NCBI RefSeq assembly: GCF_029223865.1
Contig: NZ_CP119520.1
Coordinates: 2,976,001 to 3,040,000 of the forward strand
DNA: 64,000 nucleotides
Direction of reading: 5' to 3'
Source of the DNA: Telluria mixta
GTDB lineage: Bacteria; Pseudomonadota; Gammaproteobacteria; Burkholderiales; Burkholderiaceae_D
Part shown: positions 13,896-41,785 of the stretch, one piece after another
Layout of the letters: each line of letters begins with the position of its first letter
Numbering within the stretch: the first letter of the stretch is position 1
Program-made: the position numbers and the translations under genes
Notes under the pieces: model-generated
Database searches by the model: none
What the model was told of the DNA's origin: nothing
What the model saw: the letters and a program-made list of their open reading frames with translations, nothing else

Positions 13896-14047
13896 GAAGG
13901 CAGTACGCTGTACTCGACAAGGGAAAAGGTGGCAATGGTCCATTGCCGGCATGGCAAGCGCGCCGTCATGACAGGATACCGGTGTATGGCCGGAATCGGC
14001 GCACAACAGGGCGGCGAACGGTCCGGCTACAATGAGCGTTTTACGCC

Positions 14048-14521: not shown

Positions 14522-14574
14522 AACGGCGCGCAATCGTGCTCCGTCCCGCGCGGCGAATCTGTCATCATGCGCGC

Positions 14575-26317: not shown

Positions 26318-27120
26318 CAGAGTTCATCCACCATCTCGCCGGCGCGGCGGCGGAACAGGCGCAGGCCGAACAGGCACAGGACCACGGCCAGCACGAACAC
26401 GGGGAACAGGGAACGCCAGTCGGGCGTTGCACCCTGCACGAGGACGGCCTGGTACGCGCCAATGATGCGCGCCATCGGGTTCCACTCCAGCAGCGGACGC
26501 ACGTCGGCCGGCAGGATCGTGGCGGGATAGACGATGGGCGTGAGCCAGAACCAGAACTGCATCGCGATCGTGACGAACTGGCCCACGTCGCGGAAGAACA
26601 CGTTCAGCACGCCGGCGATCATGCCGAGGCCGATCGCCAGCAGCACCTGCACGACGAGCACGGGCAGGATCGACAAATAGATCCAGCCGGGGAAGGAACC
26701 GGAGGCGACGAGGAAGACGGTGAACAGCCCGAAGATGATGGCGAAGTTGAGCGTCGCGGAGAGCACGATGATGAGGGGCAGACAGATGCGGGGAAAGCTG
26801 ACCTTCTTGATCAGGTTCGCCTGCTCGATGAACATGCCCTGGGCGCGCGCGACGATTTCCGCGAACAGGCCCCACGTGAGCACGCCCGCGCACAGCCAGA
26901 CGCTGTAGGCGTAGTGCGAATCGACTGCTCCCGGCAGCTTGCTGTGCATGACTTCGGAAAAGATCACCGTGTACACGACGATCATCGCGAGCGGCGACAG
27001 CAGGGACCACAACGCCCCCAGCACCGCATTGCTGTACTTCGACTGGAATTCGCGCTTGACGCTGCCCAGCACGAAGCCGCGGTAGGCCCAGAGGCCGCGC
27101 AGCATCAGCGGAGAGATCAT
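26317..27120 (-). CDS. wzm: Polysaccharide ABC exporter, permease subunit (Wzm)
   Basis: 267 residues from the chosen start MISPLMLRGLW. It has six predicted helices of the ABC-2 permease family, the amphipathic N-terminal segment FVLGSVKREFQSKYSNAVLG and the conserved GALWSLLSPLAMIVVY motif. It pairs with Wzt to form the glycan exporter. An in-frame start 63 bases upstream exists, but it would leave almost no leader behind the TATAAT promoter at 27201-27206. This is the first gene of a five-gene operon running to 19485. Confidence 0.92.
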   Translation of the reverse strand: MISPLMLRGLWAYRGFVLGSVKREFQSKYSNAVLGALWSLLSPLAMIVVYTVIFSEVMHSKLPGAVDSHYAYSVWLCAGVLTWGLFAEIVARAQGMFIEQANLIKKVSFPRICLPLIIVLSATLNFAIIFGLFTVFLVASGSFPGWIYLSILPVLVVQVLLAIGLGMIAGVLNVFFRDVGQFVTIAMQFWFWLTPIVYPATILPADVRPLLEWNPMARIIGAYQAVLVQGATPDWRSLFPVFVLAVVLCLFGLRLFRRRAGEMVDEL

Positions 27121-27200
27121 GGCGCGGTCCCGGCAGGCCGCGCCTCGGCAGAGTACGTCGGGTGGTTCTTCATAAAGTGGCAAGGCCCAGTGAGCGCAAG

Positions 27201-27249: not shown

Positions 27250-28371
27250 TCAGCCCTGATGTAAGCCCGCGGGCTGTCTTTGATCTCCCTCGGACGGGCT
27301 CGCGCGGCGCAGCCGGCGCCGGATCGCGCGCAGGGCCGGGGCTTCGACGAAGTGCCAGCTGAGCACGGCCAGCACGCCCGTCACGACGAGACCCAGCGCC
27401 AGCAGGCGCCAGTGGCCGAGGGGCGCGAACGCCGTCCGCAGCGCCAGGAGCACCGGCCAGTGGTAGATGTAGATGCCGTACGAGTAATCGTGGCGCTGCA
27501 GGTGGCGGGCGAACGGTAGCCGCGCCGTGCCGACGGTGAGCGCGAGCGTGCCCGCCACGAGGAAGATGCCGAACCATGTGAGCGGATTCGGGGTGAGGGC
27601 CTGCGAGCGGGTCCAGTCCAGCGCCACGAGCGCGAGCGCGCACGCGACGTGGCGCCAGCCGATGCGCAGGTCGCGTCCCAGCGTATGGATCAGCATGCCG
27701 GTCAGGAACAGCGACCACAGCCGCACTTCCCAGATATAGCCGGACAGCACGTCCGGAAACAGGTTCGCCGCCGCCAGCAGGAACAGCGCGGCGCCGCGCA
27801 TCCACGTGCGCAGCGGCAGCGCGGCGGACAGGCCCACGAGCGCGACGACCACGTACATGCGGCCTTCCCAGTACAGCGTCCACAGGGGACCGTTCAGCGT
27901 TTCGCCGCTGAACACCCCGGGCAGTTTCAGTTCTTCCGGCGGGATGATGTAGCGCAGCCAGTGCAGCACGGTATTGCCGAAGATGTAGCGCCACGGCGCC
28001 GGGTCCAGCAGGCCGCGCCAGCCCGTGCCTGAAAACAGACACACGGCGAGCACCGTCATCACGAGCAGGCACACGAACAGGCCGGGCACGATGCGCGCCA
28101 CGCGGCGCAGCACGTAGCGGCCGAGGTGCGGATCGCGTTCCCAGCTCTGGCTGATGAAGATGCCGCTGATCAGGAAAAAGACGCCGACGGCCAGCGCGCC
28201 GAGGTCCGTGTGCGGCGCGAGCAGGGGGCTGACGGGGTCGGACGCGCCGGGGCGCGCCGAATTCATCGGGAAGGCATGGAACACGACGACGAGCGTCGCG
28301 CAGACGAGCCGGACGAGATTGAAACCGTTGTCGTGCGAGGCGGTGGCCTGGTCGAGGGTGCGTGGATTCAT
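27250..28371 (-). CDS. Acyltransferase 3 family membrane protein
   Basis: The protein has 373 residues with about ten helices. The opening FNLVRLVCATLVVVFHAF gives the catalytic-type histidine of OafA/YrhL-like acyltransferases. ISGIFISQSW and RRVARIVPGLF are further family motifs, and SYGIYIYHWPV lies near the C-terminus. Such enzymes O-acylate surface sugars from the membrane. It starts one base after the stop of the CRP-like gene, so it is the last gene of the cyclase-barrel-CRP operon, and it also borders the Wzm/Wzt glycan operon. An attractive but unproven role is acylation of the surface glycan or its anchor. Confidence 0.88.
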   Translation of the reverse strand: MNPRTLDQATASHDNGFNLVRLVCATLVVVFHAFPMNSARPGASDPVSPLLAPHTDLGALAVGVFFLISGIFISQSWERDPHLGRYVLRRVARIVPGLFVCLLVMTVLAVCLFSGTGWRGLLDPAPWRYIFGNTVLHWLRYIIPPEELKLPGVFSGETLNGPLWTLYWEGRMYVVVALVGLSAALPLRTWMRGAALFLLAAANLFPDVLSGYIWEVRLWSLFLTGMLIHTLGRDLRIGWRHVACALALVALDWTRSQALTPNPLTWFGIFLVAGTLALTVGTARLPFARHLQRHDYSYGIYIYHWPVLLALRTAFAPLGHWRLLALGLVVTGVLAVLSWHFVEAPALRAIRRRLRRASPSEGDQRQPAGLHQG

Positions 28372-28372
28372 C

Positions 28373-29110
28373 CTAGGCGCCCTGCACGAGTTTCTGCAGG
28401 GCGGCGGGATCCAGGATGACGAGGCGGTTCGATTCCTTCTGCACGATGCCCTGCTGGACGAGGCTCAGCAGGGCGCGGGTGACCGTCTCGCGGCTCGTGT
28501 TGATCATGTTCGCGACGTCCTGGTGCGTGGGCAGGTTGTCGATCACGGCCTTGCCGTTACCGTCCGGCTTTTGCAGCAGCGACAGGTACGTGTAGATGCG
28601 GCGCGCCGTGTTGTTGATGCTGAGGACCGCGCGGAATTCCGAGTCGCGCTGGATCTTTTGCGCGAGGTGGCGAAGCATCAGGTTGGCCACGCTGGGCGAG
28701 TGCGAGAACAAATGCAGCGCGGTGGCGGCGGGCAGGAAGGCCACCAGCACGTCGCTCGTCGCCACCACCGAGGCCGAGCGGGTCGAGTCGTTGATCAGGG
28801 CGATTTCGCCGAAGAAGTCGCCCGGGGCGAGCATGCGCAGGCCGATCGCGCGGCCGTCTTCCGTGATGTCGACCACCTGCAGTTGGCCGGACAGCAGGAA
28901 CAGCAGGGCGTCGCCGCTGCCGCCCTTGTGCAGCACCACTTCGCGCTTGTCGTAGTGGCGGATGCGGATCTCGGCGTTCACGCGGCGCATCTCGTCTTCG
29001 CTCAGGCCGGCCAGCAGCGGGATCTTGCGCAGGTTGATCTGGATCTGGCTCGCCTCGACGGCCGCGCCGGAAGCGTAGGGAGTTGCCAGGGTCTTGCTCG
29101 CGGACGTCAT
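28373..29110 (-). CDS. CRP/FNR-family transcription regulator
   Basis: A protein of 245 residues: a cyclic-nucleotide-binding domain (about 30-150), a dimer helix and a C-terminal helix-turn-helix (about 190-235). The cAMP pocket keeps Gly101-Glu102 (FFGEIAL) and Arg111-Ser112 (TRSASV), the counterparts of the CRP residues that hold the cyclic phosphate. The residue aligned with CRP Thr127 appears to be Asp, so ligand preference could differ. The recognition helix TSRETVTR has Arg207, Glu208 and Arg212 as in CRP, which predicts binding to TGTGA-N6-TCACA. There are no FNR-type N-terminal cysteines. It lies 28 bp after the barrel gene in the cyclase operon. Confidence 0.92.
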   Translation of the reverse strand: MTSASKTLATPYASGAAVEASQIQINLRKIPLLAGLSEDEMRRVNAEIRIRHYDKREVVLHKGGSGDALLFLLSGQLQVVDITEDGRAIGLRMLAPGDFFGEIALINDSTRSASVVATSDVLVAFLPAATALHLFSHSPSVANLMLRHLAQKIQRDSEFRAVLSINNTARRIYTYLSLLQKPDGNGKAVIDNLPTHQDVANMINTSRETVTRALLSLVQQGIVQKESNRLVILDPAALQKLVQGA

Positions 29111-29138
29111 CGATGATCCTGTTAGGTGCGCGGCGCGC

Positions 29139-30413
29139 TCACGGGAGCTGCCACTGCAAGCTCAGCTGCAAAATCCGGTTATTGTACTGAAAGATCGATA
29201 TGTTCTCGTTGTTTCGGACGGCGCGCGCTTCCAGGTGTAGCGTTTGTCCCTTGCCTAACTGATAAGACAGGTCGGCCCGCACCATCTGCGTACGCTGGGC
29301 ACGTACGGCGTCGATCAGCAGTTCGGGCGCATAGGGCAGGGCGCTGTTCCAGGTCTGGCGTGTATAGCCGAGTTCGCCCGTGACGTTCTCGGACAGCGTG
29401 CGCTTGAGCATCAGGCTGGCGAAGTTGCCGTGGCGGTTGCCGCCGGGACGCTGGTCGCGCGCCTGGTCGGTCATCAGGCCGGCGGTGGCGCTGGCCACCA
29501 GCGGGCCCTCCCGCCAGGTCAGCAGGGCGCGTCCCTCCAGCATCAGGGAATTGAAGTTGGTCAGCGTCAGGTAATCGCTGTAGGTGGCGCCGGCGATCAG
29601 GTTGAGTTGCGCGCCGGCCGGCAGCGGCAGGCCCGGATTCACCCGCGCCTGCACCTGGCCCTGGCGCTGGTACATGTGGCCCCCCAGGCTCACCGCGCCC
29701 AGCGCGCCGCTGGCGTGCACGGTCCAGCGCCCGACGCGCCACGGCGACTCGACCCCGGCATACACGGCGGCGCTGTCGTACTGGCGCAGGGCGTCGTTGC
29801 GCCGCACCTGGTATTGCAGGTAGCCGATGCTGCCGTTGGGCGTCAGTTCGCGCAGGTGGTCCACGCCGATCACGCTGTACTGGTCGGCGTGCGGCTGGAA
29901 TTCCGGCAGCAGGGGCAGTTCGATCGGCCCGCCCCGGTCGACGATCAGCGACGATACGCTGGTGCCCTGGTTGACGTTGCGGTCGAAGCCCCGCCCGAGG
30001 GTCACGACGGTTGACCTGGACGGCACCCACTGCTTGCAGCCGGCTTCGCGCGTTTCCGCGATCAGGGTCAGCAGGTCGCGCGTCGGGCTGAAGCGGGTTT
30101 CGATGATCGCGAACAGGCGCTCGGCTTCGTCGGCGTTGCCCAGGCTGCACTGGGTCAGGGCCAGTTCGAGGAAGGCGCCGGCGTGCAGCGGCGCCTGTTC
30201 GACGAGGCGGCGCAAGGTGGCCGACGCATCGCTGCGACGCCCTTCGGACAGGGCCTCGAGGGCCTCGCGGTACAGTGCCTGTTCGGGGTTCTCGGCGGCG
30301 GCGTCGCCGCTGTCGGCCAGGTTTTCGACGTTCTCGGCCGCCAGCGCCGGCGCACACGCCAGCGCGCACGCCAGCATGGCCGCCAGCCAGGTGTCCTTGC
30401 GTAGAAATGTCAT
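29139..30413 (-). CDS. TPR plus outer-membrane beta-barrel protein
   Basis: The protein has 424 residues with a signal peptide ending in ALAA. Residues 40-125 contain TPR-like helices (EALEALSEGRRSDASATLRRL, ELALTQCSLGNADEAERLF). From about 135 to the end the sequence alternates in beta-barrel style and finishes QLSLQWQLP. The layout is that of DUF560/surface-lipoprotein-assembly-modifier-like proteins, which sit in the outer membrane with the TPR part in the periplasm. The barrel could be a channel or sensor. Its ATG overlaps the cyclase stop by four bases, so the two are translationally coupled. The function here is unknown. Confidence 0.8.
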   Translation of the reverse strand: MTFLRKDTWLAAMLACALACAPALAAENVENLADSGDAAAENPEQALYREALEALSEGRRSDASATLRRLVEQAPLHAGAFLELALTQCSLGNADEAERLFAIIETRFSPTRDLLTLIAETREAGCKQWVPSRSTVVTLGRGFDRNVNQGTSVSSLIVDRGGPIELPLLPEFQPHADQYSVIGVDHLRELTPNGSIGYLQYQVRRNDALRQYDSAAVYAGVESPWRVGRWTVHASGALGAVSLGGHMYQRQGQVQARVNPGLPLPAGAQLNLIAGATYSDYLTLTNFNSLMLEGRALLTWREGPLVASATAGLMTDQARDQRPGGNRHGNFASLMLKRTLSENVTGELGYTRQTWNSALPYAPELLIDAVRAQRTQMVRADLSYQLGKGQTLHLEARAVRNNENISIFQYNNRILQLSLQWQLP

Positions 30414-32326
30414 GCCGCCGGCCCCGTCGTGAGGGAGGCTGCCGTGTTCTCGGTACTGCCCGGTTGATGCATGCTGTCTTGCAAAGTGAAAACGTTAATC
30501 AGGTGTTCCTTGCCGCGCAGGCGGCGCTCGCCCAGCGGCAGGAAACGATGTCGTTGCGCCCGTGCCACCGTGCCCGGGCCGATGATGACGTCGTGGGGGT
30601 AGTCGCGCGCCGCCTGCTCCAGGCGCGAGGCGGTGTTTACGCTGTCGCCCACGGCAGTATAAATGCTGCGGAAGCTGGTGCCGAAATCGCCGGCCATGGC
30701 CGGGCCGCTTTCGATGCCGATGCGCACCCGCAGCGGCGGGTGGCCCAGGCGTTCGCGCGCCGCGCTGAATGCGCGCACCCGCGCGACGATCGCGCGCGCG
30801 GCGTCCAGCGCCAGGTCGGCGTGCTCGTCGAGCGGCAGCGGCGCGCCCCAGAACGCCACCAGGCCGTCGCCGGTGTACTTGTCGAGCGTGCCCTGGCGTT
30901 CGATCACGGGACCGGTCAGGCAGTCCAGGAAATCGCGCGTGAGCCGCGCCGCGTCCTCGACCGGCAGCGACTCGACCTGGGCGGTATAGCCTTCCATGTC
31001 GGCGATCAGCGTGGTCACGTCGAGCTGGCGCGGCTGCAGCGGATCCTCGAGGTCGCTGCGCAGCAGTTCCGCGACCACCGCGGGGGCGACGTACTGGCGC
31101 AAGGTCAGCAGCAGGCTGCGCGACCGGCGCTGGGTCTGCTGCCACTGGTAGGGCACGGCCACCGCGAGCAGCAGCAGGTTGCTGGCCAGCGGCGCGACGG
31201 TGCTGAAATCCGGATCGTGCGGCGCCGCGAGCCAGGCCAGGCTCGTCCAGCCCAGCGAACTCGCGCCCAGCAGGCCCACGCTGGCCAGCGCCGACAGGCG
31301 CGGGAAGGCGAGCGGCACCAGCAGCGCCGTCAGCAGGGTCCAGCCCAGCGCAAGCAGGGCGCCGGGCCAGCGCGCCGGGGCGCGTCCGGCCTGCAGGTCG
31401 AGCAGGGTCGACAGCATGGCGGCCTGCACGCCCAGGCCCGGACGGCTGGCCGCCAGCGGCGTGGCCACGCGGTCGCCCATGCCCAGCGAGGACGAGCCGA
31501 CCAGCACGAGGCGGCCGTGCGCACTGGCCGGGTCGATCGCCTGGTCGAGGATGTCGGCCGCGCTGACGACGGTATAGGCATTCCAGTCCCGCTGGAAGGC
31601 GACGCGCATCGGGCCGCCGTCCGCCAGCGGCAAATTGCCGCGCCCGTTGCAGCAGTTGACGAGGGCCAGGGCCAGCGCCGGGTAGGCGCGGCCTTCGTAG
31701 CGGGTGATCAGGGGCACGCGGCGCAGCGTGCCGTCCGGATCGGGGATGAAGCCGATCGCGCCGATGTGCGGCGCCTGGGCCAAGGCCGGATAGTTGGCGA
31801 TATAGCCCGTGGCCTCGACGCCGCCGGCATAGCCCGTGACCGCGCCGCCCAGGTGGCCGTCGAGCACGGGTTCCGGCCGCAGCCGCGCCAGGTCGAAGTC
31901 GAACGCCTGGGCCGGCACCACCGGGCCGTGGCGCGCGAGCAGGGCCAGGCGGGTATCGCCCGGACCGCCATCGGCCTTGGGCAACAGGATGTCGAGCGCG
32001 ACTCCGCGCGCTTCATAACGGCCGAGCAGAATTTCGACCAGGTCGGCCAGGCGTTCGCGCGGCCACGGCCAGGGGCCGATACGGGTCAGGCTGGCCTCGT
32101 CGATATCCACCACCAGGACGCGCGGTTCCGGCGCATTGCTGACCTGCAGGCGCAGGAACGCATCGCGCATCCATTCGTTGGCGATGAAGGCCAGGCGCGG
32201 CGCGGGCGCCCACTGCATCCAGGCGGTCAGCAGCACGGCCGCGATGGCGATCAGCCAGCGGATCGGCAGGCCCGCGCGCCTGATTGGCGATGGCGCGGCA
32301 GCGGATTGTGGAAGGAATTCTGCCAC
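30410..32326 (-). CDS. CHASE2-domain class III adenylate cyclase
   Basis: The protein has 638 residues: a signal-anchor helix (about 22-40), a periplasmic CHASE2 domain (about 45-310, with VVDIDEASL, GRLVLVGSSS), three helices (about 322-395) and a class III cyclase domain (about 430-620). The catalytic set is complete: metal-binding Asp443 and Asp487 (DMEG, TGDG), Lys483 (LDKYTGDG), Asp561, and Asn564/Arg568 (GDSVNTASRLE). The Lys/Asp pair is the adenine-selecting form, so cAMP rather than cGMP is expected. It is the first gene of the operon with the barrel and CRP-like genes and is divergent from the FecR gene. The 193 bp between them holds a CRP-type site. Confidence 0.93.
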   Translation of the reverse strand: MAEFLPQSAAAPSPIRRAGLPIRWLIAIAAVLLTAWMQWAPAPRLAFIANEWMRDAFLRLQVSNAPEPRVLVVDIDEASLTRIGPWPWPRERLADLVEILLGRYEARGVALDILLPKADGGPGDTRLALLARHGPVVPAQAFDFDLARLRPEPVLDGHLGGAVTGYAGGVEATGYIANYPALAQAPHIGAIGFIPDPDGTLRRVPLITRYEGRAYPALALALVNCCNGRGNLPLADGGPMRVAFQRDWNAYTVVSAADILDQAIDPASAHGRLVLVGSSSLGMGDRVATPLAASRPGLGVQAAMLSTLLDLQAGRAPARWPGALLALGWTLLTALLVPLAFPRLSALASVGLLGASSLGWTSLAWLAAPHDPDFSTVAPLASNLLLLAVAVPYQWQQTQRRSRSLLLTLRQYVAPAVVAELLRSDLEDPLQPRQLDVTTLIADMEGYTAQVESLPVEDAARLTRDFLDCLTGPVIERQGTLDKYTGDGLVAFWGAPLPLDEHADLALDAARAIVARVRAFSAARERLGHPPLRVRIGIESGPAMAGDFGTSFRSIYTAVGDSVNTASRLEQAARDYPHDVIIGPGTVARAQRHRFLPLGERRLRGKEHLINVFTLQDSMHQPGSTENTAASLTTGPAA

Positions 32327-32452
32327 GCGGGAAAGAAGGATGGAAAAATTGCAAGCAAAGAAACATTATAGCGTCGCGCTGTTGCTAGTGCGCACTGTTC
32401 ATAATTTTAGAGACAAATTAGCGACAGGCGAGCCCTGGCGTTTGCATATAAT

Positions 32453-32468
32453 TGTGACCGTCGTCACT
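32453..32468. promoter_or_regulatory. CRP-type operator upstream of FecR gene
   Basis: TGTGA-N6-TCACT has one mismatch to the symmetric consensus TGTGA-N6-TCACA. Its centre (32460.5) is about 42 bases upstream of a start site predicted from a poor -10 (TAAGCT, 32491-32496), close to the class II CRP position. It lies in the divergent region and could also affect the cyclase operon. Confidence 0.6.
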
Positions 32469-32519
32469 TTCTACCGTCCTGCCCGCACGTTAAGCTCGGG
32501 GCAGGAGAGGAACCCATTT

Positions 32520-33881
32520 ATGCCGCGCTATCTGCTTGCCACCACCCTGTTCGCCGGCGCCTGTATCGTTCAGGCGGCCCAGGCCGCCGACGCCGGGCGC
32601 ATCATCTTTGTTGCCGGCAAGGCGAGTGTCGGCGACCAGCCGGCCGTCGAGGGCGGCAGCGTGCGCGAAGGCGAGCTGCTGTCCACTGGCAGCGACGGCT
32701 ATATCTATGTGAAGACGGTCGACAACGGCCTGTTCATCCTGCGTCCCGCAACCCGCGCGCGGATTACCGCCTACCACGTCGACACGGCCAACCCGGCGAA
32801 TACCCGGGTCAAGTTCGAGCTGCTGAGCGGCGTGGCACGCAGCAAGTCGGGCGAGGCGGTCAAGCAGGCGCGCCAGAACTTTCGTTTCAACACCCCGGTG
32901 GCGGCCATCGGCGTGCGCGGCACCGACTTCACCGTGTTCACCGACGACCACACGTCGCGCGTGGCGGTGCTGACCGGCGGCGTGGTGGTGAGCGGCTTTG
33001 CCGGCGCCTGCCGGCCGGAAGGCGGCGGGCCCTGCGAGGGCACCATGAGCCGCGAGCTGTCGGCGGCCCAGCGCGGCCAGCTGCTGCAGGTGACGCGCGG
33101 CCAGGTGGCACCGCAGCTGCTCAGCGGCAGCGCGCTGTCTCCCGACCTGGTGTCGCCGCCGCGCACCGACGAGCCGGTTGCCAAGACCGATGCCACGTCG
33201 GGTGTGACGACCAATGGCGGCACCCCGAATCTCGAGGTCAAGAAAGTGGTGGCCCTGACGGCCGTCAACGAACAGCCGAAGCCGCCCGTATTGCCGGCGC
33301 CGGAAACGCCGGTGCCGCCGCCGGCCGTCGATCCGGTGCCGCCGCCGGATCCGTCCAGGCCGGAAAGCCGCATCGTGTGGGGACGCTGGGTGCAATTCGA
33401 CGCGTATTACGCCAAGCTGAATTTGCCGACGGAAATGCAAAATGCCGAGTTACTGGCGACGAATGGCGATTACGCGCTGCTCCGTACGCCCGGCCGCCAA
33501 TTCGTTACACCGAATAATGGCAGCATGGGTTTCGCGCTGCGTGATTCCGATGCGGTGATTTATACGGATTACGGCTATGGTTCGCGCACGATCGCGCCGG
33601 CAACCGTGTCGAATGGCTCGCTGAACGTAGATTTCGGTAGCCGGACCTTCGCCACCAATTTCACCGTCCTGTCGAAGGACGAATCATTCCCGTTCCAGGC
33701 GACGGGTGCGGTGGGCAGCGATGGCCGCCTGTTCGGCGACGAAGCCAAGGGACGGCCGGGTTATCTCAACGTACAGGGGTTGCTGAGTAACGACAAGGGT
33801 GGCAGTGCCGCATATATCTTCGATGGTCGCATTGACGCCTTGCGTACGGTGAATGGCGCGACGTATTGGATGCGCAGGTAA
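32520..33881 (+). CDS. Periplasmic FecR-domain protein
   Basis: The protein has 453 residues with a signal peptide ending in AAQA. The FecR domain (about 30-160) includes GRIIFVAGKASVG, RFNTPVAAIGVRGTDFTV and VAVLTGGVVVSG. A proline-rich linker (about 255-285, PPVLPAPETPVPPP) leads to a beta-rich C-terminal domain. Unlike FecR itself, it has no cytoplasmic anti-sigma part and no sigma-factor gene nearby, so it is a fully exported FecR-like protein. Stand-alone FecR proteins beside CHASE2 cyclases are a recurrent pairing in my recollection. The start has AGGAGAGG upstream; the frame is open much further upstream, but only this start gives a signal peptide. Confidence 0.87.
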   Translation: MPRYLLATTLFAGACIVQAAQAADAGRIIFVAGKASVGDQPAVEGGSVREGELLSTGSDGYIYVKTVDNGLFILRPATRARITAYHVDTANPANTRVKFELLSGVARSKSGEAVKQARQNFRFNTPVAAIGVRGTDFTVFTDDHTSRVAVLTGGVVVSGFAGACRPEGGGPCEGTMSRELSAAQRGQLLQVTRGQVAPQLLSGSALSPDLVSPPRTDEPVAKTDATSGVTTNGGTPNLEVKKVVALTAVNEQPKPPVLPAPETPVPPPAVDPVPPPDPSRPESRIVWGRWVQFDAYYAKLNLPTEMQNAELLATNGDYALLRTPGRQFVTPNNGSMGFALRDSDAVIYTDYGYGSRTIAPATVSNGSLNVDFGSRTFATNFTVLSKDESFPFQATGAVGSDGRLFGDEAKGRPGYLNVQGLLSNDKGGSAAYIFDGRIDALRTVNGATYWMRR

Positions 33882-33900
33882 ATCGTATTATCCCCGTATA

Positions 33901-33927
33901 AAACCCCGGTATTGCCGGGGTTTTTTT
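33901..33927 (+). terminator. Rho-independent terminator after FecR gene
   Basis: A 9-bp perfect stem (AAACCCCGG paired with CCGGGGTTT) with a 5-base loop is followed by a run of T, 20 bases after the FecR stop codon. With it, the FecR transcript should end before the S-layer-like gene. Confidence 0.9.
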
Positions 33928-34193
33928 ATATGCATGAGAAACGCCGGTCCAATGCCGGTTTTTTGTGCAGTCGTGAATATTGTTGAGATAATTGGAGAGA
34001 ATTGACGGGTAATGTCAACTGAAGTGTCAAAAATTTGTATGAATTTTGAACGAGTTTTTTATTTTTGTGATGGCTGTCACATCGCCATGCTTGTGCGATC
34101 TGTCATGATTCGGCCCGTTGGACAGCAAAGGCATTCCCGAGGCTGCACAATCTAGAGACATTCATCGATCGATCGATCTACTTGGAGCATTAA
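33928..34193 (+). promoter_or_regulatory. Promoter region of S-layer-like gene with CRP site
   Basis: With the terminator to its left, this is a 312-base gap without a gene. A perfect CRP consensus TGTGA-N6-TCACA lies at 34066-34081. A CATGAT -10 hexamer lies at 34104-34109, predicting a start near 34116, which puts the CRP centre about 42 bases upstream, the class II arrangement. The stretch before the operator (33960-34065) is strikingly AT-rich, and a GATC tetranucleotide repeat lies near 34165-34178. The gene itself has a good GGAG ribosome binding site. Confidence 0.7.
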
Positions 34194-36194
34194 ATGGCAA
34201 CGACCTACTACGAAAACATCCAGAAGCTGTACGTGGCATACTTCAACCGTCCGGCTGACACCGCTGGCCTGGCATACTGGGAAGGCGTCGTCGAAGCCGC
34301 CAAGGGCGACACCGCCGCTGTTTCGGCCGCTTTCGCTGCTGACACCGAGTACAAGGCTGCTTACAAAGACCTGTCGAACGCCGACATCGTCAACAAGGTT
34401 TACCAGAACCTGTTCGGCCGTGACGCCGAAGCCGCTGGCAAGGCTTACTGGGCCGACCTGCTGGACAAGAAGACGATCACCATCGACGCAGTCGTGACCG
34501 CTGTCGCTTCCGGCGCACAAGGCTCCGACCTGACCGCGTACAACAACAAGGTCAAGGCTGCCACCGCCTTTACCGCTGCTCTGGACACCGCTACCGAACA
34601 GAAGGGCTACAGCGGCGACGCAGCTAACGCCATCGCCAAGACCTTCATCTCGGGCGTGACGACGGATGCATCGCTGGCCGCTGCCATCGCTCCGGCAACC
34701 CTGGGCGCCACCGTCGCCAAGTCGGTTGCTGCCGGCACCGCCTTCTCGCTGGCTTCGGGCCTGGAAGCCCTGAACGTCGCTACCGTGGCTAAAGCCGATT
34801 TCCTGGCTGCTGCTGACGGTGACAACAATGCCAAGACCTCGACCACTGATGCCGCTATCGGCACCAAAGTGACCACCGCCATTACCGGCGTGGACACCCT
34901 GGTCGCTGGCGACTACACCGGCGCTACCGCTGGCGTCCGTTCGGTTCTGCTGCAATCGCAGATGTCGCTGAATGCGGCTACGCTGGCTGACGCACAAGCT
35001 GCTGTGGCTACGGCAAACGCCAACATCGCCAAGGTTGCAGGCCTGACCGATGCGATCAGCGCACTGGAAACCGCCGAGACCGCTACCAAGGATGCGCAAA
35101 CCGCCCAGATCACCAAGGAAGCTGATCTGGCTGCCAAGGTTGCTTCGTACAATGTCGTCAATCCGACCAAGACGGCTGTTGTTGCTGCCAACGGCGAAAT
35201 CACCATCAACGGCACGAAAGTTGTCACCCTGGACGCTGACGGCAAGCTGGTCCTGGCTACCGATGTCACCGAAACGACCAACCCGGGCGTGACCACGCTG
35301 CTGAACGCAAGCGTCGCTACCGAAGCTGCTCAGAAGGCGACTGCCGACGCAGTGACGGCACAAGCCAACGCACAAGCCGCGGTTGACACGCTGGATCTGA
35401 GCGCTGCAGCGCAAACCAAGCTGAAGGATGTGGCTGCCGCGATGACCATCGTTGATCTGGCTGACGGCGCAACCCCGACCTCCGCTCAGATCAAGACCGA
35501 ACTGAGCCAGCTGGATGCCATCAACAAGTCGGCCGCTGCAGTCGCAGCCCAAACCGGCGCTACGCAAGCTCAGAAGGACGCTGCCGCTGCTGCTGCTAAA
35601 GCGTACACCGACTTCAAGGGCCTGGTTGACGCATTCGTGGCTGCCGATACCGACAATCCGCTGATCGCCAAGCTGGACACTGCTAATGACGCTGTGACCG
35701 CCGCTCAGAAGAGCGTCACCGACCTGACCAAGGCAGTGACTGCTCTGGACGCCGCCAACGCAACGGCTGCTCAACTGGCTGCTGTCAACGGTCAAGTGAA
35801 AGCTGCCCAGGACGCCTTCACCACCAACAAGCTGATGCTGCCGGTCACCCTGGATGCCACCCACACCTCGGCTGTGGCAACCGCTGACGCCGACATCTTC
35901 GTCGTCGCCAAAGGTGCAAAGGATTCGACCATCACCAACTTCGGCCTGCTGGGCTCCGACTCGCTGTACATCGGTACCCAATACACGCTGAACACCGGTG
36001 ACTACACCAAAGGCGCCGGCAACAACGCAGTGCTGGAAGCTTTCCTGGTGAAGAGCGGTTCGGACACCAAGCTGGTTCTGGAAACCTCGGCCTTCGGCTC
36101 GAATGCAGCAACTCCGGAAATCGTCACCATCACCCTGACCGGTGCTGACTCGACCAAGGTGCACCTGACCAACGGCATCATCACCGTGGCCTAA
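34194..36194 (+). CDS. S-layer-like DUF4214 protein, type I secretion substrate
   Basis: The protein has 666 residues and no cysteine; it is Ala/Thr-rich (long runs such as AAAAAAKAYTD). Residues 1-135 hold a DUF4214 repeat pair (QKLYVAYFNRPADTAGLAYW and VYQNLFGRDAEAAGKAYW). A long helical or repeat-rich middle follows, then a beta-rich C-terminus with IVTITLTGADSTKVHLTNGIITVA-like hydrophobic strands. There is no signal peptide, as expected for type I export. The strongly biased codon use (GCT/GCC, CTG, AAC) suggests very high expression. A terminator follows, then the exporter operon. A surface layer or abundant adhesin is the best guess; no RTX nonapeptides are visible. Confidence 0.82.
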   Translation: MATTYYENIQKLYVAYFNRPADTAGLAYWEGVVEAAKGDTAAVSAAFAADTEYKAAYKDLSNADIVNKVYQNLFGRDAEAAGKAYWADLLDKKTITIDAVVTAVASGAQGSDLTAYNNKVKAATAFTAALDTATEQKGYSGDAANAIAKTFISGVTTDASLAAAIAPATLGATVAKSVAAGTAFSLASGLEALNVATVAKADFLAAADGDNNAKTSTTDAAIGTKVTTAITGVDTLVAGDYTGATAGVRSVLLQSQMSLNAATLADAQAAVATANANIAKVAGLTDAISALETAETATKDAQTAQITKEADLAAKVASYNVVNPTKTAVVAANGEITINGTKVVTLDADGKLVLATDVTETTNPGVTTLLNASVATEAAQKATADAVTAQANAQAAVDTLDLSAAAQTKLKDVAAAMTIVDLADGATPTSAQIKTELSQLDAINKSAAAVAAQTGATQAQKDAAAAAAKAYTDFKGLVDAFVAADTDNPLIAKLDTANDAVTAAQKSVTDLTKAVTALDAANATAAQLAAVNGQVKAAQDAFTTNKLMLPVTLDATHTSAVATADADIFVVAKGAKDSTITNFGLLGSDSLYIGTQYTLNTGDYTKGAGNNAVLEAFLVKSGSDTKLVLETSAFGSNAATPEIVTITLTGADSTKVHLTNGIITVA

Positions 36195-36234
36195 TTCAGG
36201 CTGGATCCAGCCCGGGCAACCGGGCTGTTCCCGG

Positions 36235-36266
36235 AAACCCCGCTGCCGCAAGGCAGCGGGGTTTTT
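36235..36266 (+). terminator. Rho-independent terminator after S-layer-like gene
   Basis: A 10-bp perfect G+C-rich stem (CCCCGCTGCC with GGCAGCGGGG) closes a GCAA tetraloop and is followed by five T residues. It lies 40 bases after the stop and separates the abundant substrate transcript from the exporter operon. Confidence 0.93.
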
Positions 36267-36317
36267 CATTTGGCTTACCAGGTGTCTGTGACCCGGACGC
36301 GACTCTTGTTCAAAATT

Positions 36318-36360
36318 TGTGACGCACATCACATTTTTGAATGTTTTTGATAGATAATAT
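36318..36360 (+). promoter_or_regulatory. CRP site and promoter of type I secretion operon
   Basis: A perfect TGTGA-N6-TCACA lies at 36318-36333. A GATAAT -10 (36353-36358) follows, predicting a start near 36365 and placing the CRP centre about 40 bases upstream, near the class II position. The region is AT-rich. The leader before the exporter ATG (36428) is about 63 bases and has no obvious ribosome binding site. Confidence 0.72.
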
Positions 36361-36427
36361 GCGCGGGCAAATTTCTTTAGGTTATGGCGTGCTTCGGTGA
36401 CGAAACAACGTCGATACGCAATCCGCT

Positions 36428-38239
36428 ATGAAAAAACTGTTAGAAAAAAAGAGCGAAATCCAGCTGGTGCTCCGGTCGTTCAAAAGCACCTTCTTCACGG
36501 TGGGCGCGTTCAGCGCGATCGTCAACCTGCTGATGCTGGCGCCCTCGTTGTACATGCTGCAGGTGTACGACCGTGTGCTGGGCAGCCGTAACGAGATCAC
36601 GCTGCTGATGCTGACCCTGCTGATCATCGGCGCGTACCTGTTCATGGGCGGCCTCGAACTGATCCGTTCGTTCGTGCTGGTGCGCGTGGGCGCGAAGTTC
36701 GACATGCAGCTCAACAAGCGCATCTACACCGCCGCCTTCGAGCAGAACCTCAAGCAGGCGGGCGGCAATGCCGGCCAAGCGTTGGCGGACCTGACGAACC
36801 TGCGCCAGTTCCTCACGGGCAGCGCACTGTTCGCCTTCTTCGACGCACCCTGGTTCCCGATCTACCTGATCGTCATCTTCATATTCGAGCCGGTGCTGGG
36901 CATGTTCGCGCTGGCCGGCACCGTCGTGCTGATCATCCTGGCCATCGTCAACGAGCGCGTGACCAAGCAACCGCTGGCCGAAGCGAACTCGATGTCGATC
37001 CAGGCCAATACCCTGGCCACGAACAACCTGCGCAACGCCGAAGTCATCGAATCGATGGGCATGCTGCCCAATCTGATCGGCCGCTGGTTCAAGCTGCACG
37101 GAAAATTCCTCACGCTGCAGGCGGATGCCAGCCAGAAGGCCGGCCTGATCACCGCCGTGACCAAGTTCGTGCAGGTGTCCATGCAGTCGCTGGTGCTGGG
37201 CCTGGGCGCGCTGCTGGTCCTGGAGCACAAGATCACCCCGGGCATGATGATCGCCGCATCGATCCTGCTGGGCCGTACGCTGCAGCCGGTGCAGCAGGTC
37301 ATCGCGGTCTGGAAGAGCGTCAGCGGCGCACGCAGCTCCTACGAGCGCCTGGAAGCCCTGCTGGAAGCCAATCCGGCGCGCGAGGCGGGCATGGCCCTGC
37401 CGGCCCCGCAAGGTACGCTGCTGCTGGATAACGTGACGGCCGCGCCGCCGGGCGTCAAGGTGCCGATCGTGAAGGGCGTGTCGATCGCGATCACCCCGGG
37501 CGACGTGCTGGGCGTGCTCGGCCCGAGCGGTTCCGGCAAGTCGACCCTGGCGCGCCTGCTGGTAGGCGTGTGGCCGACCATGATCGGCAAGGTGCGCCTG
37601 GACGGCGCCGACATCTACCACTGGAACAAGGCCGAGCTGGGCCCGCACGTGGGCTACCTGCCGCAGGACATCGAACTGTTCGCAGGCAGCATCAGCGAAA
37701 ACATTGCCCGCTTCGGCGAGGTCGACGCGGAGAAGGTGGTGCAGGCGGCTAAGCGCGCCGGCGTCCACGAGATGATCCTGCAGTTCCCGGAAGGCTATGA
37801 CACGAAGCTGGGCGACGGCGGCGCGGGCCTGTCGGGCGGCCAGAAGCAGCGCCTCGGCCTGGCGCGCGCCATGTACGGCGACCCGGCCCTGCTGGTGCTG
37901 GACGAGCCGAACTCGAACCTCGACGACGTCGGCGAAGCGGCCCTGCTGGCCGCTGTGACCGACCTGCGCGCGCGCGGCAAGACCATCGTGATGATTACCC
38001 ACCGCCCGAACGTGGTGCAGGTGACCACCAAATTGCTGCTGATGCGCGACGGTACCGTGCACATGTTCGGCCCGACCAACCAGGTGCTCGCCGCCCTGCA
38101 GGAAGCCAACAAGAAAGCGATGGAAGCCCAGGCCGCCGCTCAGGAGCAGGTCGCGCAGGCGCAGGCCGCTGCCCAGCGCGCTGCTGCAGCCGCCCAGGCG
38201 GCCCAGGCCGCCAGTGCCACCACTGGAGAAGGAAAGTAA
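36428..38239 (+). CDS. Type I secretion ABC transporter (PrtD-like)
   Basis: The protein has 603 residues. Five to six helices (about 20-310, opening with the family segment FSAIVNLLMLAPSLYMLQVYDRVLGSRNEITLLMLT) are followed by an ATPase domain with Walker A GPSGSGKST, signature LSGGQKQR and Walker B LLVLDEPNSNLD. The missing N-terminal C39 domain and the lengths match PrtD/RsaD-type exporters, which move signal-peptide-free proteins straight to the outside. The C-terminal 50 residues are an Ala/Gln-rich helix. The first two genes overlap by one base (TAATG), so exporter and adaptor are translationally coupled. The likely substrates are the DUF4214 proteins on either side. Confidence 0.94.
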   Translation: MKKLLEKKSEIQLVLRSFKSTFFTVGAFSAIVNLLMLAPSLYMLQVYDRVLGSRNEITLLMLTLLIIGAYLFMGGLELIRSFVLVRVGAKFDMQLNKRIYTAAFEQNLKQAGGNAGQALADLTNLRQFLTGSALFAFFDAPWFPIYLIVIFIFEPVLGMFALAGTVVLIILAIVNERVTKQPLAEANSMSIQANTLATNNLRNAEVIESMGMLPNLIGRWFKLHGKFLTLQADASQKAGLITAVTKFVQVSMQSLVLGLGALLVLEHKITPGMMIAASILLGRTLQPVQQVIAVWKSVSGARSSYERLEALLEANPAREAGMALPAPQGTLLLDNVTAAPPGVKVPIVKGVSIAITPGDVLGVLGPSGSGKSTLARLLVGVWPTMIGKVRLDGADIYHWNKAELGPHVGYLPQDIELFAGSISENIARFGEVDAEKVVQAAKRAGVHEMILQFPEGYDTKLGDGGAGLSGGQKQRLGLARAMYGDPALLVLDEPNSNLDDVGEAALLAAVTDLRARGKTIVMITHRPNVVQVTTKLLLMRDGTVHMFGPTNQVLAALQEANKKAMEAQAAAQEQVAQAQAAAQRAAAAAQAAQAASATTGEGK

Positions 38240-39591
38240 TGAAACTGATTGCGAACAAGGCGCAGGACGTCGTCGCGCACGACGTCACGCCGATCGAAGT
38301 GAATACGGATGCCCGCGTCTATGCGCGCCTGGGCTGGATGATCGTGCTGCTGGGCGTCGGCGGCTTCCTGCTGTGGGCGCTGCTGGCGCCGCTCGACAAG
38401 GGCGTGCCGATGGGCGGCACCGTCGCCAAGGAATCGAACCGCCAGGCCGTGCAGCACCAGACCGGCGGCACCATCCAGCAGATCCTCGTGCGCGACGGCG
38501 ACGTCGTCAAGGCCGGCCAGGTGCTGGTGCGCATGAACCCGATCGTGGCCCAGTCGGCCGTCGAGATGACCGACAGCCAGTACCTGAGCGCGCGCGCCGT
38601 CGAGGCGCGCCTGATCGCCGAACGCGACGGTGCCAAAACCATCAAGTTCCCGGCCGAGATGGAACAGCGCCGCAGCGATCCGCGCGTGGCTGAGATGATG
38701 AGCCTGCAGAACCAGCTGCTGGCGTCGCGCCAGGGCTCGCTGCAGAACGAGCTGGGCGGCGTGGACGAAAGCATCGCCGGCCTGAAGGTGCAGATCCAGG
38801 GCCTGCAGGAGTCGCGCGACGCCAAGAAGGAGCAAGTGAACATCCTGAAGGAGCAGCTTGCCGGCATGCGCGACCTGGCCAAGGAAGGCTATGTGGCGCG
38901 CAACCGCCTGCTCGAACTGGAGCGCACGTATGCCCAGCTGAACGGTTCGATCTCGGAAGACATCGGCAACATCGGCCGCGCCCAGCGCCAGGTGACTGAA
39001 CTGACGCTGCGCAAGGCCCAGCGCGTGCAGGACTACCAGAAGGAAGTCCGCACCCAGCTGACCGACGTGCAGCGCGAAGCCGAAGCCCAGCAGGCCCGCC
39101 TGCAGGCGCAGAAGTTCGAGCTGTCCAACGTCGAGGTCAAGGCGCCCGCCGACGGCACCGTGGTCAACCTGGCCGTGTTCACGCCGGGCGGCGTGGTGCC
39201 GGCGGGCTTCAAGATGATGGACATCGTGCCCAGCAACGATCCGCTGGTGGTCGAAGGCCAGTTGCCGGTCAACCTGGTCGACCGTGTGCACGCGGGCCTG
39301 AAGACCGAACTGATCTTCTCCGCCTTCAACGCCAACCGCACGCCGCACATCGAAGGCGTCGTCGAGCAGGTGGCGGCCGACCGGGTCGTGGACGAGCGCA
39401 CCGGCGCAGCCTTCTACAAGGTGCGCGTGAAGGTGACGCCGAAGGGCGCGCAGATGATCGCCGCGCACAAGATGGACATCCGTCCCGGCATGCCGGTCGA
39501 GCTGTTTGTGAAGACGGGCGAGCGCACCATGATGAACTACCTGCTCAAGCCGGTACTGGACCGCGCCGGCTCGGCGCTGAGCGAGGAGTGA
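38239..39591 (+). CDS. Type I secretion periplasmic adaptor (HlyD/PrtE-like)
   Basis: 450 residues with a single helix near residues 32-50, a biotinyl-lipoyl-like barrel half around GGTIQQILVRDGDVVKAGQVL, a long alpha-hairpin (about 105-290) and the returning barrel half VKAPADGTVVNLAVFTPGGVV. It spans the periplasm between the ABC transporter and the TolC-like channel. Its start overlaps the ABC gene by one base, and its stop overlaps the TolC gene's GTG start by four bases. Confidence 0.94.
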   Translation: MKLIANKAQDVVAHDVTPIEVNTDARVYARLGWMIVLLGVGGFLLWALLAPLDKGVPMGGTVAKESNRQAVQHQTGGTIQQILVRDGDVVKAGQVLVRMNPIVAQSAVEMTDSQYLSARAVEARLIAERDGAKTIKFPAEMEQRRSDPRVAEMMSLQNQLLASRQGSLQNELGGVDESIAGLKVQIQGLQESRDAKKEQVNILKEQLAGMRDLAKEGYVARNRLLELERTYAQLNGSISEDIGNIGRAQRQVTELTLRKAQRVQDYQKEVRTQLTDVQREAEAQQARLQAQKFELSNVEVKAPADGTVVNLAVFTPGGVVPAGFKMMDIVPSNDPLVVEGQLPVNLVDRVHAGLKTELIFSAFNANRTPHIEGVVEQVAADRVVDERTGAAFYKVRVKVTPKGAQMIAAHKMDIRPGMPVELFVKTGERTMMNYLLKPVLDRAGSALSEE

Positions 39592-40940
39592 GCGTGGTAG
39601 GTACGATGATGAAACGCGGCGTCGTGGCGCTGGCCGTGGCGCTGGCTGCCGGACAAGCAGGAGCGGTCACCCTGCAGCAGGCCTACGAGGCGGCGCTGAA
39701 GAACGACCCGACCTACCGCATGAGCTTCTACGACAAGGAGGCGGCCCAGGAAAACCGCATCATCGGCCGGTCTTACCTGATGCCCAGCGTGTCGGCGAGC
39801 CTGTCGAGCAGCCGCAACGTCGCCGACATCGACAATATGGGAACCGACATCCTGGGCCGGCCGGCGCGGAGCATCACGCATCCCCGCTACATCAGCCGCT
39901 CCAACGTCGTGCAACTGCGCCAGCCGATCCTGAACCTGGACGGCGTCGCCCGCTACCGCCAGGGCAAGGTGCAGGCCCAGCAGGGCGAAGCCGCGTTCGC
40001 GGCGGGCACCGACGAGGTCACGGTGCGCGTCGTCAGTGCCTACATGGACGCGCTGTTCGCGGACGACCAGGTGGCGCTGTCGAAGGTGTCGCGCGACATG
40101 TACCTGGAGATGATGAAGGTGAACCAGCGCCTGTTCGAAAAAGGCGAGGGCACCAAGACGGACATGCTGGAAACCCAGGCCCGGCTCGACCTGGCCGAAG
40201 CCCAGCTGACGGAGGCGAAGGACAATGCCGTGGCCGCGCGCGAAACGCTGGCCGGCATCATCGGCATGGATCCGGGCCCGCTCGACCGGCTCGGCGACGG
40301 CTTCAAGCCCGCTACCGCCCAACCCGGCACGTTCGAGGACTGGGAAAAGATCGCGCGCGAACACAATCACGAACTGGCGGCCGCGCGCCTGGCCACCGAA
40401 AACGCCCGGCTCGACATCGACCGCAACCGCGCCGGCCACTACCCGCGTGTGGACTTCGTCGCCGCGTATAGCAAGGGCGACGCGGAATCGATCAACACGT
40501 ACACCCAGAATACGGTGAACCGGACGATCGGCGTGCAGGTCAGCATTCCGATCTACCAGGGCGGCGCGATCAATGCGACCACGCGCCAGGCGGCCGCGAA
40601 CTATGCGCGCGCCCAGGCGGATGTGGACGCGCGCACGAGCAAGGTCCTCGTCGAACTGCGCAAGGCGCACAGCCTGGTCATGTCCAGCGTGCACAAGATC
40701 GAGGCGCTGGAAAAAGCCGTTGCTTCCGGCAAGCTGTTGATGACTGCCACCGAACAGAGCATCAAGGGCGGGGTGCGCATCAATCTCGACCTGCTGAACG
40801 CCCAGCAGCAGTTGTACACGAGCCAGCGCGACCTGGCCCAGGCCCGCTATACCTACATGATCGGCCTGTTGCGCCTGCGCGCGGCGGCCGGCACGCTCGA
40901 CAGCAGCGCCGTGCGCGAAGTGGCTGCCTACTTCCGCTGA
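39588..40940 (+). CDS. TolC-family outer-membrane channel of type I system
   Basis: 450 residues from a GTG that overlaps the adaptor stop (GTGA). An ATG at 39606 is an equally possible start and leads straight into the signal peptide MMKRGVVALAVALAAGQAGA. The mature protein shows two TolC-like repeats with long helices (TLQQAYEAALKNDPTYR, TAYSKGD-like strand regions, SLVMSSVHKIEALEKAV). It completes the three-gene exporter. A strong terminator follows 20 bases downstream. Confidence 0.92.
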   Translation: MSVVGTMMKRGVVALAVALAAGQAGAVTLQQAYEAALKNDPTYRMSFYDKEAAQENRIIGRSYLMPSVSASLSSSRNVADIDNMGTDILGRPARSITHPRYISRSNVVQLRQPILNLDGVARYRQGKVQAQQGEAAFAAGTDEVTVRVVSAYMDALFADDQVALSKVSRDMYLEMMKVNQRLFEKGEGTKTDMLETQARLDLAEAQLTEAKDNAVAARETLAGIIGMDPGPLDRLGDGFKPATAQPGTFEDWEKIAREHNHELAAARLATENARLDIDRNRAGHYPRVDFVAAYSKGDAESINTYTQNTVNRTIGVQVSIPIYQGGAINATTRQAAANYARAQADVDARTSKVLVELRKAHSLVMSSVHKIEALEKAVASGKLLMTATEQSIKGGVRINLDLLNAQQQLYTSQRDLAQARYTYMIGLLRLRAAAGTLDSSAVREVAAYFR

Positions 40941-40960
40941 TCCGATCCGCGCGTCTGACG

Positions 40961-40993
40961 AAGCCCTGCCGCTCATGCGGCGGGGCTTTTTTT
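40961..40993 (+). terminator. Rho-independent terminator of secretion operon
   Basis: A 12-bp stem with one G-T pair (AAGCCCTGCCGC against GCGGCGGGGCTT) has a TCAT loop and is followed by seven T residues. It lies directly downstream of the TolC-like gene. Confidence 0.92.
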
Positions 40994-41170
40994 ATGCGCA
41001 AACCGATGCTTCGGACTGTGCGGTATCTAACTCATGTTGACCGCCAGTTTCCTAGAAAAATCTTTTTCTATTCAATAACTTACGCACGTTACACATCAGT
41101 TTGGTGCGCCCATCTTTAAGCAATTGGGGTATATTTTTTTACCACTTAACCCATTGCAGAGGAGCCCATC

Positions 41171-41785
41171 ATGGCGACAGCGACCGAAACAACAGTGCAG
41201 AAGCTTTACGTGGCGTATTTCAGCCGCCCGGCGGACGTGGCGGGTCTGGCGTACTGGACGAATATCCTGGCCAGCAATCCGGACGGCTACCAGATGATTT
41301 CGGCGAACTTCGCCTCGTCGGCGGAGTACAAGGCCATGTATGCGGGCCAGGACAACCGCGCCGTCGTCAGCACGGTCTACGAGCACCTGTTCGGTCGTCC
41401 CGCGGAAACTGCCGGTGTCGATTACTGGGCCAAGATGCTGGACCAGAAAGTGATCACGGTCGACAACGTCGTCACCCAGATCGCGGCCGGCGCGCAAAGC
41501 ACGGACAAGATCGCCTACGACGGCAAGGTGGCGGTGGCCGCCGTGTTCACGGAGCACCTGGACCTGGCATCGGAACAGGCAGCGTATGCGAAGCCGGCCG
41601 GCATGAAGGTCGCCTCCGATTACATTGCCAGTATCAAGGACCTGCTGTCCGCCTCGCTGGCGCGCGATCCGGGCAATATCGACATCACGATCGACAAGAT
41701 GGTGTCGGCTGCCGCCACCGGTACCGATGGCCATGCGCAAGTCGTCGGCGTGTCCGACGCAGGTTTCACGCCGCTCCACGGCTGA
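41171..41785 (+). CDS. Short DUF4214 protein, paralogue of S-layer-like protein
   Basis: The protein has 204 residues. The first 135 or so align closely with the large DUF4214 protein on the other side of the exporter: QKLYVAYFSRPADVAGLAYW and VYEHLFGRPAETAGVDYW correspond to QKLYVAYFNRPADTAGLAYW and VYQNLFGRDAEAAGKAYW there. It has neither the long repeat region nor the beta-rich C-terminus, and no signal peptide or cysteine. It may be a second, smaller substrate, or a module that caps or anchors the larger protein. AGGAG lies seven bases before the ATG. The promoter region 40994-41170 contains no CRP consensus that I can see. Confidence 0.82.
   Translation: MATATETTVQKLYVAYFSRPADVAGLAYWTNILASNPDGYQMISANFASSAEYKAMYAGQDNRAVVSTVYEHLFGRPAETAGVDYWAKMLDQKVITVDNVVTQIAAGAQSTDKIAYDGKVAVAAVFTEHLDLASEQAAYAKPAGMKVASDYIASIKDLLSASLARDPGNIDITIDKMVSAAATGTDGHAQVVGVSDAGFTPLHG

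Follow-up and report, generated by a model that had tools for sequence, protein, structure and literature searches.

Does the cell envelope of Telluria mixta report its own state, through cyclic AMP (cAMP), to the genes for a secreted surface protein and its exporter? The question is raised by positions 27250 to 41785 of a 64,000-nucleotide stretch of T. mixta DNA (RefSeq assembly GCF_029223865.1, contig NZ_CP119520.1, positions 2,976,001 to 3,040,000; hereafter the window), where an earlier note had proposed a cAMP-CRP circuit formed by an adenylate cyclase, a CRP-like regulator, two envelope proteins, a DUF4214 protein and a type I secretion system (T1SS). The source genome is a single contig of 7.44 Mb, and the window genes were scanned for domain families. 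On balance we think it probable that the locus encodes a self-contained envelope-to-gene cAMP circuit around the surface protein and its exporter, every signal step of which we infer.

The domain scans found all of the genes that had been listed, in the order claimed. On the reverse strand lie a local CRP-family regulator (28373-29110; cNMP_binding and HTH_Crp_2), a protein with tetratricopeptide repeats (TPRs) and a predicted 14-strand outer-membrane barrel (29139-30413; barrel fold in a model of pLDDT 90.5 and a PF04575 profile match) and a CHASE2 receptor-type class III nucleotide cyclase (30410-32326; PF05226 and PF00211), the cyclase and barrel genes overlapping by 4 bp. The catalytic motifs of the cyclase are well kept, with DK..GD in 30/30 sequences and YT..GD.VN..SRLE in 29/30, and its close relatives in the named collection belong to Massilia (M. 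phosphatilytica, 89% in the best segment), Telluria, Duganella and Pseudoduganella. The forward strand carries the fecR gene (32520-33881), a gene for a secreted DUF4214 surface protein of 666 aa (34194-36194; PF13946) and the T1SS operon (36428-40940), which encodes a PrtD-type ABC protein (TIGR01842, E 1.1e-233), a HlyD-type adaptor (TIGR01843, E 6.9e-119) and a TolC-type outer-membrane protein (TIGR01844, E 6.7e-96).

We searched 36 relatives of the same genus and found an orthologous cyclase (at least 59% identity) in 28, with 8 lacking it; loci were examined as fetched stretches of at most 20 kb. The genes for the CRP, the barrel, the cyclase and the FecR protein were present together in all 28 loci, accompanied by the DUF4214 gene in 27 and by a visible T1SS in 23, which bears out the conserved neighbourhood that had been named as a check on the proposal. 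Matches of the T1SS ABC protein (tblastn) that fell inside wzt-type genes (L061, L065 and L082) were excluded from this count. In three of the five loci where the T1SS was unseen the stretch ends early: those of L054 and L066 stop too soon, and that of L065 ends less than 1 kb after the DUF4214 gene.

CRP-consensus sites had been reported before the FecR, surface-protein and exporter genes, and all three are there: a box with one mismatch at 32453-32468, and exact boxes at 34066-34081 and 36318-36333 (all on the forward strand; pattern TGTGA-N6-TCACA, with the pattern read backwards as control). The two exact boxes, in the DUF4214 and T1SS promoters, are the only ones in the genome. Raw counts of boxes are uninformative: with up to 2 mismatches allowed, the window holds 10 matches where chance predicts 16, and genome-wide numbers do not exceed chance either for exact boxes (2 versus 2 for the control) or for boxes with at most 1 mismatch (29 versus 24). 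What does exceed chance is their placement and its repetition in relatives. Allowing for 1 mismatch, a box stands before fecR in 28/28 loci (exact in 18), and an exact box was found before the DUF4214 gene in all 27 loci that hold it and before the T1SS operon in all 23 where the operon was seen.

The boxes also come and go with the local CRP. Among 61 genomes of the genus, including that of T. mixta, 44 carry the CRP orthologue and 17 lack it. Exact boxes number 2 or more in every one of the 44 (132 altogether, versus 15 for the control) and at most 1 in each of the 17 (6 altogether, versus 2 for the control), 11 of which have none. The split is complete (Fisher 1.9e-15, a value which overstates independence because the genomes share ancestry). 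The 28 cyclase-holding genomes contain 88 exact boxes, 68 of them inside the fetched stretch, and some of the remainder are probably the T1SS box lying just beyond the end of the stretch or on the next contig (G020 and G016). We read this distribution as that of a private CRP regulon, nearly confined to a single locus, which would comprise fecR, the surface protein and its exporter. Two further observations concern boxes elsewhere: G073 has two exact boxes within 500 bp (C8:299178 and 299662) on a contig other than that of the CRP gene, possibly marking an extra target, and an identical palindrome, TGTGAAAATTTTCACA, outside the locus in three other genomes of the genus (G022, G032 and G036) is possibly the site of another regulator.

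Promoters aligned on the box, and compared by eye, have a consistent geometry. ATAAT occurs at one position in 23 of 24 T1SS promoters (the exception is L069), the DUF4214 promoters share a CTGTCATGAT-like or CTGGCAATAT-like sequence, and many fecR promoters have GATAAT or GACAAT; in the window the corresponding -10 elements are GATAAT (36353-36358) for the T1SS operon and an extended -10, CATGAT (34104-34109), for the DUF4214 gene. By eye, the -10 centres lie approximately 30-33 bp from the box centre, which places the box near -40 to -43. In E. coli, a CRP box at this distance has class II geometry, associated with activation, and we therefore expect activation at these promoters. For the leftward cyclase operon we found no element of this sort. 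The geometry of the three promoters fits the suggestion that the co-encoded CRP turns the secreted layer on; the cAMP-driven flow of signal to that CRP would be the conjectural half of the suggestion.

The label "S-layer-like" given to the surface protein needs qualification. No GGxGxD (RTX) repeats were found in the window DUF4214 protein, so it does not itself look like an RsaA-type S-layer protein and the label depends on its long orthologues. Among 27 orthologues, 13 are long (878-1525 aa) and carry the repeats, and 14 are compact and, like the window protein, lack them; the long members account for the match of the family alignment to RsaA (E 1.5e-9). The N-terminal DUF4214 part is constant among orthologues and the remainder varies, and cysteine is missing from all but one of the 27, as it is from the window protein. 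A surface-layer function for the window protein is likely on these comparisons. Across L045-L072 the surface protein switches between the compact and the long RTX form from species to species, with the same kind of promoter. High expression of the protein had also been claimed, and here the one line of support is codon use at the level of ribosomal genes: 0.75 for DUF4214, 0.72 for the ABC protein and 0.77 for the HlyD-type adaptor. The 19 ribosomal genes used as reference average 0.73 (0.64-0.81), and the values of the 12 other window genes tested lie at 0.51-0.70.

Two features of the sensor side had been overlooked, namely the likeness of the TPR-barrel protein to outer-membrane proteins of the type 11 secretion system (T11SS, or Slam) and the cargo-type C-terminus of the FecR protein. 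The FecR protein is predicted to have the FecR/CSS domain fold, followed by a handle and an 8-strand barrel in the manner of T11SS cargo (TbpB-like architecture). At the sequence level, PF01298 matched 2/45 FecR orthologues (best E 0.0012) and not the window protein, a Paracoccus FecR protein fell below the cut-off (E 2.3e-4), and a search of PDB sequences with the FecR-protein profile gave three short matches. In the titles and visible abstracts of the matches listed in a literature search, no joining of FecR with T11SS/DUF560 was found.

The trio of CHASE2 cyclase, cargo-type FecR protein and T11SS-like barrel recurs in other Burkholderiales and on plasmids of Paracoccus and Shinella; tblastn of the window barrel protein against plasmids returned no match. 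In an order-level draw of 300 genomes, the local CRP was found in 24 at E ≤ 1e-30. Of these 24, 20 lie outside the genus, and 19 of these 20 loci were examined (G254 was left out). A cyclase was nearby in 10, and in 8 of those 10 both the cargo-type FecR protein and the T11SS-like barrel stand beside it. On a Shinella plasmid (L186) the trio is followed immediately by an operon for NHLP-type peptide export, which suggests that the sensor may be coupled to different exporters. In L147, a single reading frame of 1065 codons (11939-15133, forward strand) runs without a break through both the CHASE2 cyclase and the T11SS-like barrel, and is either a possible fusion or the product of a start codon at 13850 with no preceding stop.

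In the circuit that we propose, the T11SS-like barrel with its periplasmic TPRs would work with the FecR protein and its cargo-fold C-terminal barrel, and the pair would inform the CHASE2 domain of the neighbouring cyclase about the state of the cell surface. The state sensed would most likely be that of the surface protein or of the polysaccharide on which it sits. The cyclase would make cAMP, which would load the co-encoded CRP, and CRP-cAMP would bind the three class II sites and activate fecR (as feedback), the DUF4214 surface protein and the type I exporter. This CRP would serve the locus almost alone, and the adjacent Wzm/Wzt-type exporter would probably supply the anchoring polysaccharide. 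The genes, their conservation, the sites and the promoter geometry are observed, and the folds are predicted from models; we infer the signal, the production of cAMP and the dependence on it.

Several observations weigh against this circuit. The binding, cAMP and expression steps are read from sequences and models, and genomes drawn from a single genus cannot count as independent samples. L060 and L061 have no T1SS behind the DUF4214 gene in the stretch, though more sequence follows. The fecR promoter of the window itself combines its one-mismatch box with a weak -10 (GTTAAG, approximately 32489-32494, placed by alignment with relatives). Several distant CHASE2 cyclases were without the trio in the stretch fetched. 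In Sinorhizobium meliloti, the separate FecR protein SMc02177 was dispensable for perception of the plant signal (PMC5498481), unlike the receptor NsrA.

A rather unlikely but serious alternative is that the local CRP activates the surface locus and the cyclase answers an unrelated cue, such as a host or plant protein or a nutrient, with no surveillance of the layer. The S. meliloti pathway NsrA-CyaK-Clr senses an external protein (PMC7529298), and the Paracoccus and Shinella trios had no annotated S-layer gene in the stretch shown. Against this stands the fixed position of the sensor beside the surface-protein locus in 28/28 loci of the genus, a linkage which by itself leaves the cue undefined.

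It is unlikely, in our estimate, that the CRP is constitutive or bound to another ligand and that the cyclase acts elsewhere and merely adjoins it; the residues of the CRP bear on this in both directions. E72, R82, S83 and S128 of the cAMP pocket, R82 and S83 being phosphate-site residues, are kept in the window protein and in 28/28 orthologues, together with R180, E181 and R185 of the recognition helix; the helix residues and the box match those of CRP. The same proteins all have K for R123 and D for T127. In the E. coli protein, T127 and S128 contact cAMP (PMC10127613), and with Asp at 127 in place of that Thr a different ligand or weak activation is conceivable. Among the out-of-genus CRP loci, R82 was found in 9/10 with a cyclase nearby and in 3/9 with none in the stretch, being lost in 6 of these 9 (Fisher p 0.02; the loci are non-independent and the presence of a cyclase was judged within the stretch). 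The exceptions count against the proposed circuit: L149 has a cyclase but no R82, whereas R82 is retained in L145 and L151, whose stretches show no cyclase, and in L146, whose 4.8-kb contig shows none.

Loci with no cyclase in the stretch can nevertheless keep both the CRP and its sites, as would be expected if another ligand were involved. In L137-L139 a box, one mismatch off the pattern in both L137 and L138, precedes the T1SS ABC gene; L139 also has one before a DUF4214 gene. Our own reading is that the exporter and the surface protein are old CRP targets and that control by cAMP is tied to the cyclase; the retention of R82 and S83 in 28/28 Massilia orthologues and the loss of R82 where no cyclase is near speak for a cAMP-bound CRP in the proposed circuit. 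The T. mixta genome, moreover, has only two matches to class III cyclase domains, in a search for that class only. Two close copies of the local CRP occur within one genome in G061 and G084.

The nature of the barrel raises another alternative, that it serves the linked exporter as a BcsC/PgaA-type polysaccharide channel, with neither kinship to T11SS nor a role in sensing. BcsC was the first match of the barrel model in Foldseek, which counts against T11SS kinship, and a Wzm/Wzt-type exporter is present in the locus. No Slam or T11SS outer-membrane protein was among the Foldseek matches listed, an absence which is uninformative. The predicted architecture, N-terminal TPRs and 14 strands, is that of Slam. 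With hhalign, comparison to 23 PF04575 proteins gave prob 99.8 over the full length and 98.6 (E 5.7e-16) for the barrel alone, whereas the controls (one reversed and four block-shuffled) gave at most 4 and the E. coli PgaA and BcsC barrels at most 0.2 (one sequence each, a weak control). A TPR-barrel also stands beside FecR and cyclase in L134, L141 and L147, in stretches showing no wzm/wzt. We consider the polysaccharide channel improbable.

Kinship to T11SS is distant all the same, and several comparisons count against it. Tested against single PF04575 sequences, hhalign gave prob > 50 for 8/23 and ≤ 50 for the other 15, and L153-L156, the best PF04575 scorers, reached no more than 4.7. The protein does not reach the PF04575 cut-off, and no match was found in the T. 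mixta genome at E ≤ 0.001. TPR_Slam was found in 3 of 48 barrel orthologues (best E 0.017), PF04575 was not among the best 25 of 42 families listed, and a search of PDB sequences with the barrel profile gave four weak matches (E ≥ 0.02) in the TPR part. Because it lies below Pfam's curated cut-off, we class the TPR-barrel as a distant relative of the T11SS/Slam (DUF560) outer-membrane proteins and not as a member of PF04575; its role in export is a prediction from profiles and models.

A more specific form of the proposed circuit, to which we give tentative credence, short of even, is that a T11SS/Slam-type export channel has become the cell-surface receptor of the cyclase, with the FecR protein as its cargo, forming an export checkpoint that may be a general CHASE2 design. 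The channel would hold the cargo barrel or have it threaded in, and the FecR domain would register the exit of that barrel (surface free) or its blockage (layer complete) and relay this to CHASE2, setting cAMP and so the output of the surface layer; NsrA would be a fused version of the same device.

Finally, that the sites are read by a housekeeping CRP encoded elsewhere, the local CRP having another task, is so improbable that we treat it as ruled out: the genome does have other CRP/FNR-family genes, but the box set tracks the co-encoded CRP in the 44/17 split, which argues against an unlinked reader, and the paralogue nearest to E. coli CRP (3.736 Mb, 29%), the one gene covered by our recognition-helix comparison of paralogues, has LTLETVSR at the position of CSRETVGR and is thus missing R180.

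Around the circuit lie further genes. A wzt/wzm-type polysaccharide ABC exporter (ATPase 25097-26317 and permease 26317-27183, reverse strand), named from its sequence type and not by a family scan, is a member of the conserved cluster that had escaped the earlier note, with wzm in 28/28 and wzt in 27/28 of the same-genus loci. The acyltransferase (27250-28371, reverse strand; Acyl_transf_3, PF01757, E 5.5e-25) is present as claimed, but it occurs in only 10/28 of these loci, which rules it out as a core component. A second, short DUF4214 protein is encoded at 41171-41785 (forward strand; PF13946), with no CRP box of up to 2 mismatches near its gene. Some 6 kb from the second CHASE2 cyclase of the genome (L080, approximately 3.770-3.790 Mb) lies a gene with a FecR domain, and the stretch yielded no T11SS-like barrel.

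We know of no general answer to how CHASE2 cyclases receive their signals. The recurring trio of cyclase, FecR cargo and T11SS-like channel would offer a concrete model of a CHASE2 receptor, testable in one locus. A CRP regulon of one locus would likewise be a simple setting in which to follow how a family of global regulators becomes local, and the locus would provide a linked genetic handle on the control of a surface layer.

No described system of this composition had been known to the earlier note, a claim which does not hold, as there are close precedents in the NsrA-CyaK-Clr pathway of S. meliloti and in clusters of Campylobacterota. A 1219-aa chain encoded on S. meliloti pSymB has FecR (85-179), TPRs (397-606) and a C-terminal remainder, and its gene overlaps the start of a CHASE2 cyclase gene. 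The chain and the cyclase would be NsrA and CyaK, nsrA being presumably directly upstream of cyaK. As one fused FecR-TPR-barrel chain adjoins the cyclase there, we argue that the separate FecR and barrel proteins of the window act together. CyaD1/CyaK-Clr is described with NsrA and a FecR-domain protein (PMC5498481, PMC7529298, PMC13001267), NsrA is shown to be a receptor by genetics (PMC7529298), its barrel portion is placed at residues 600-1200 (PMC7529298), and signal-dependent output through CyaK needs NsrA (PMC7529298, PMC13001267). In the NsrA-like chain our profiles matched nothing beyond the TPR part, and kinship of the NsrA barrel to SlamC was therefore not adopted.

The S. meliloti pathway shares with the window its CHASE2 cyclases, a CRP-family activator, an outer-membrane barrel receptor (predicted in the window), a FecR domain and, in S. 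meliloti, cAMP-controlled surface genes. The two differ in that FecR, TPRs and C-terminal part form one chain there and two genes here, in the box (TGTT-N8-AACA, PMC5498481, versus TGTGA-N6-TCACA) and in the regulon (approximately 150 genes, PMC10463352, versus essentially one locus); the portions consulted name no T1SS or DUF4214 target, and the window has both. The Campylobacterota clusters combine CHASE2 cyclases with FecR- and TPR-domain proteins and include a phosphodiesterase, with no regulator or target named in the part seen (PMC9239204).

T11SS/Slam systems with TbpB-like cargo resemble the window in having a TPR and 14-strand barrel protein adjoining a protein with a C-terminal 8-strand barrel, and differ from it in that the cargo-like protein of the window has an N-terminal FecR/CSS domain and its barrel gene overlaps a cyclase gene; "FecR" occurs 0 times in the main texts of two T11SS papers (PMC8406197, PMC12282271). 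The FecIRA system (FecR/PupR) also sets a FecR/CSS domain next to an outer-membrane barrel, whereas in the window the output is a cyclase, and neither an ECF (extracytoplasmic function) sigma factor nor a TonB-dependent receptor was found among the ten proteins scanned (27250-41785). Caulobacter RsaA is likewise a secreted surface protein whose gene is linked to a PrtD-type T1SS, and the long DUF4214 orthologues match it, but the window protein is without RTX repeats. To our knowledge, no linked cyclase-CRP pair controls RsaA. Given the S. meliloti and Campylobacterota precedents, the core circuit is of a known kind, and what sets the window apart is its nearly single-locus CRP regulon, its surface-protein and T1SS target, and the T11SS reading of its sensor.

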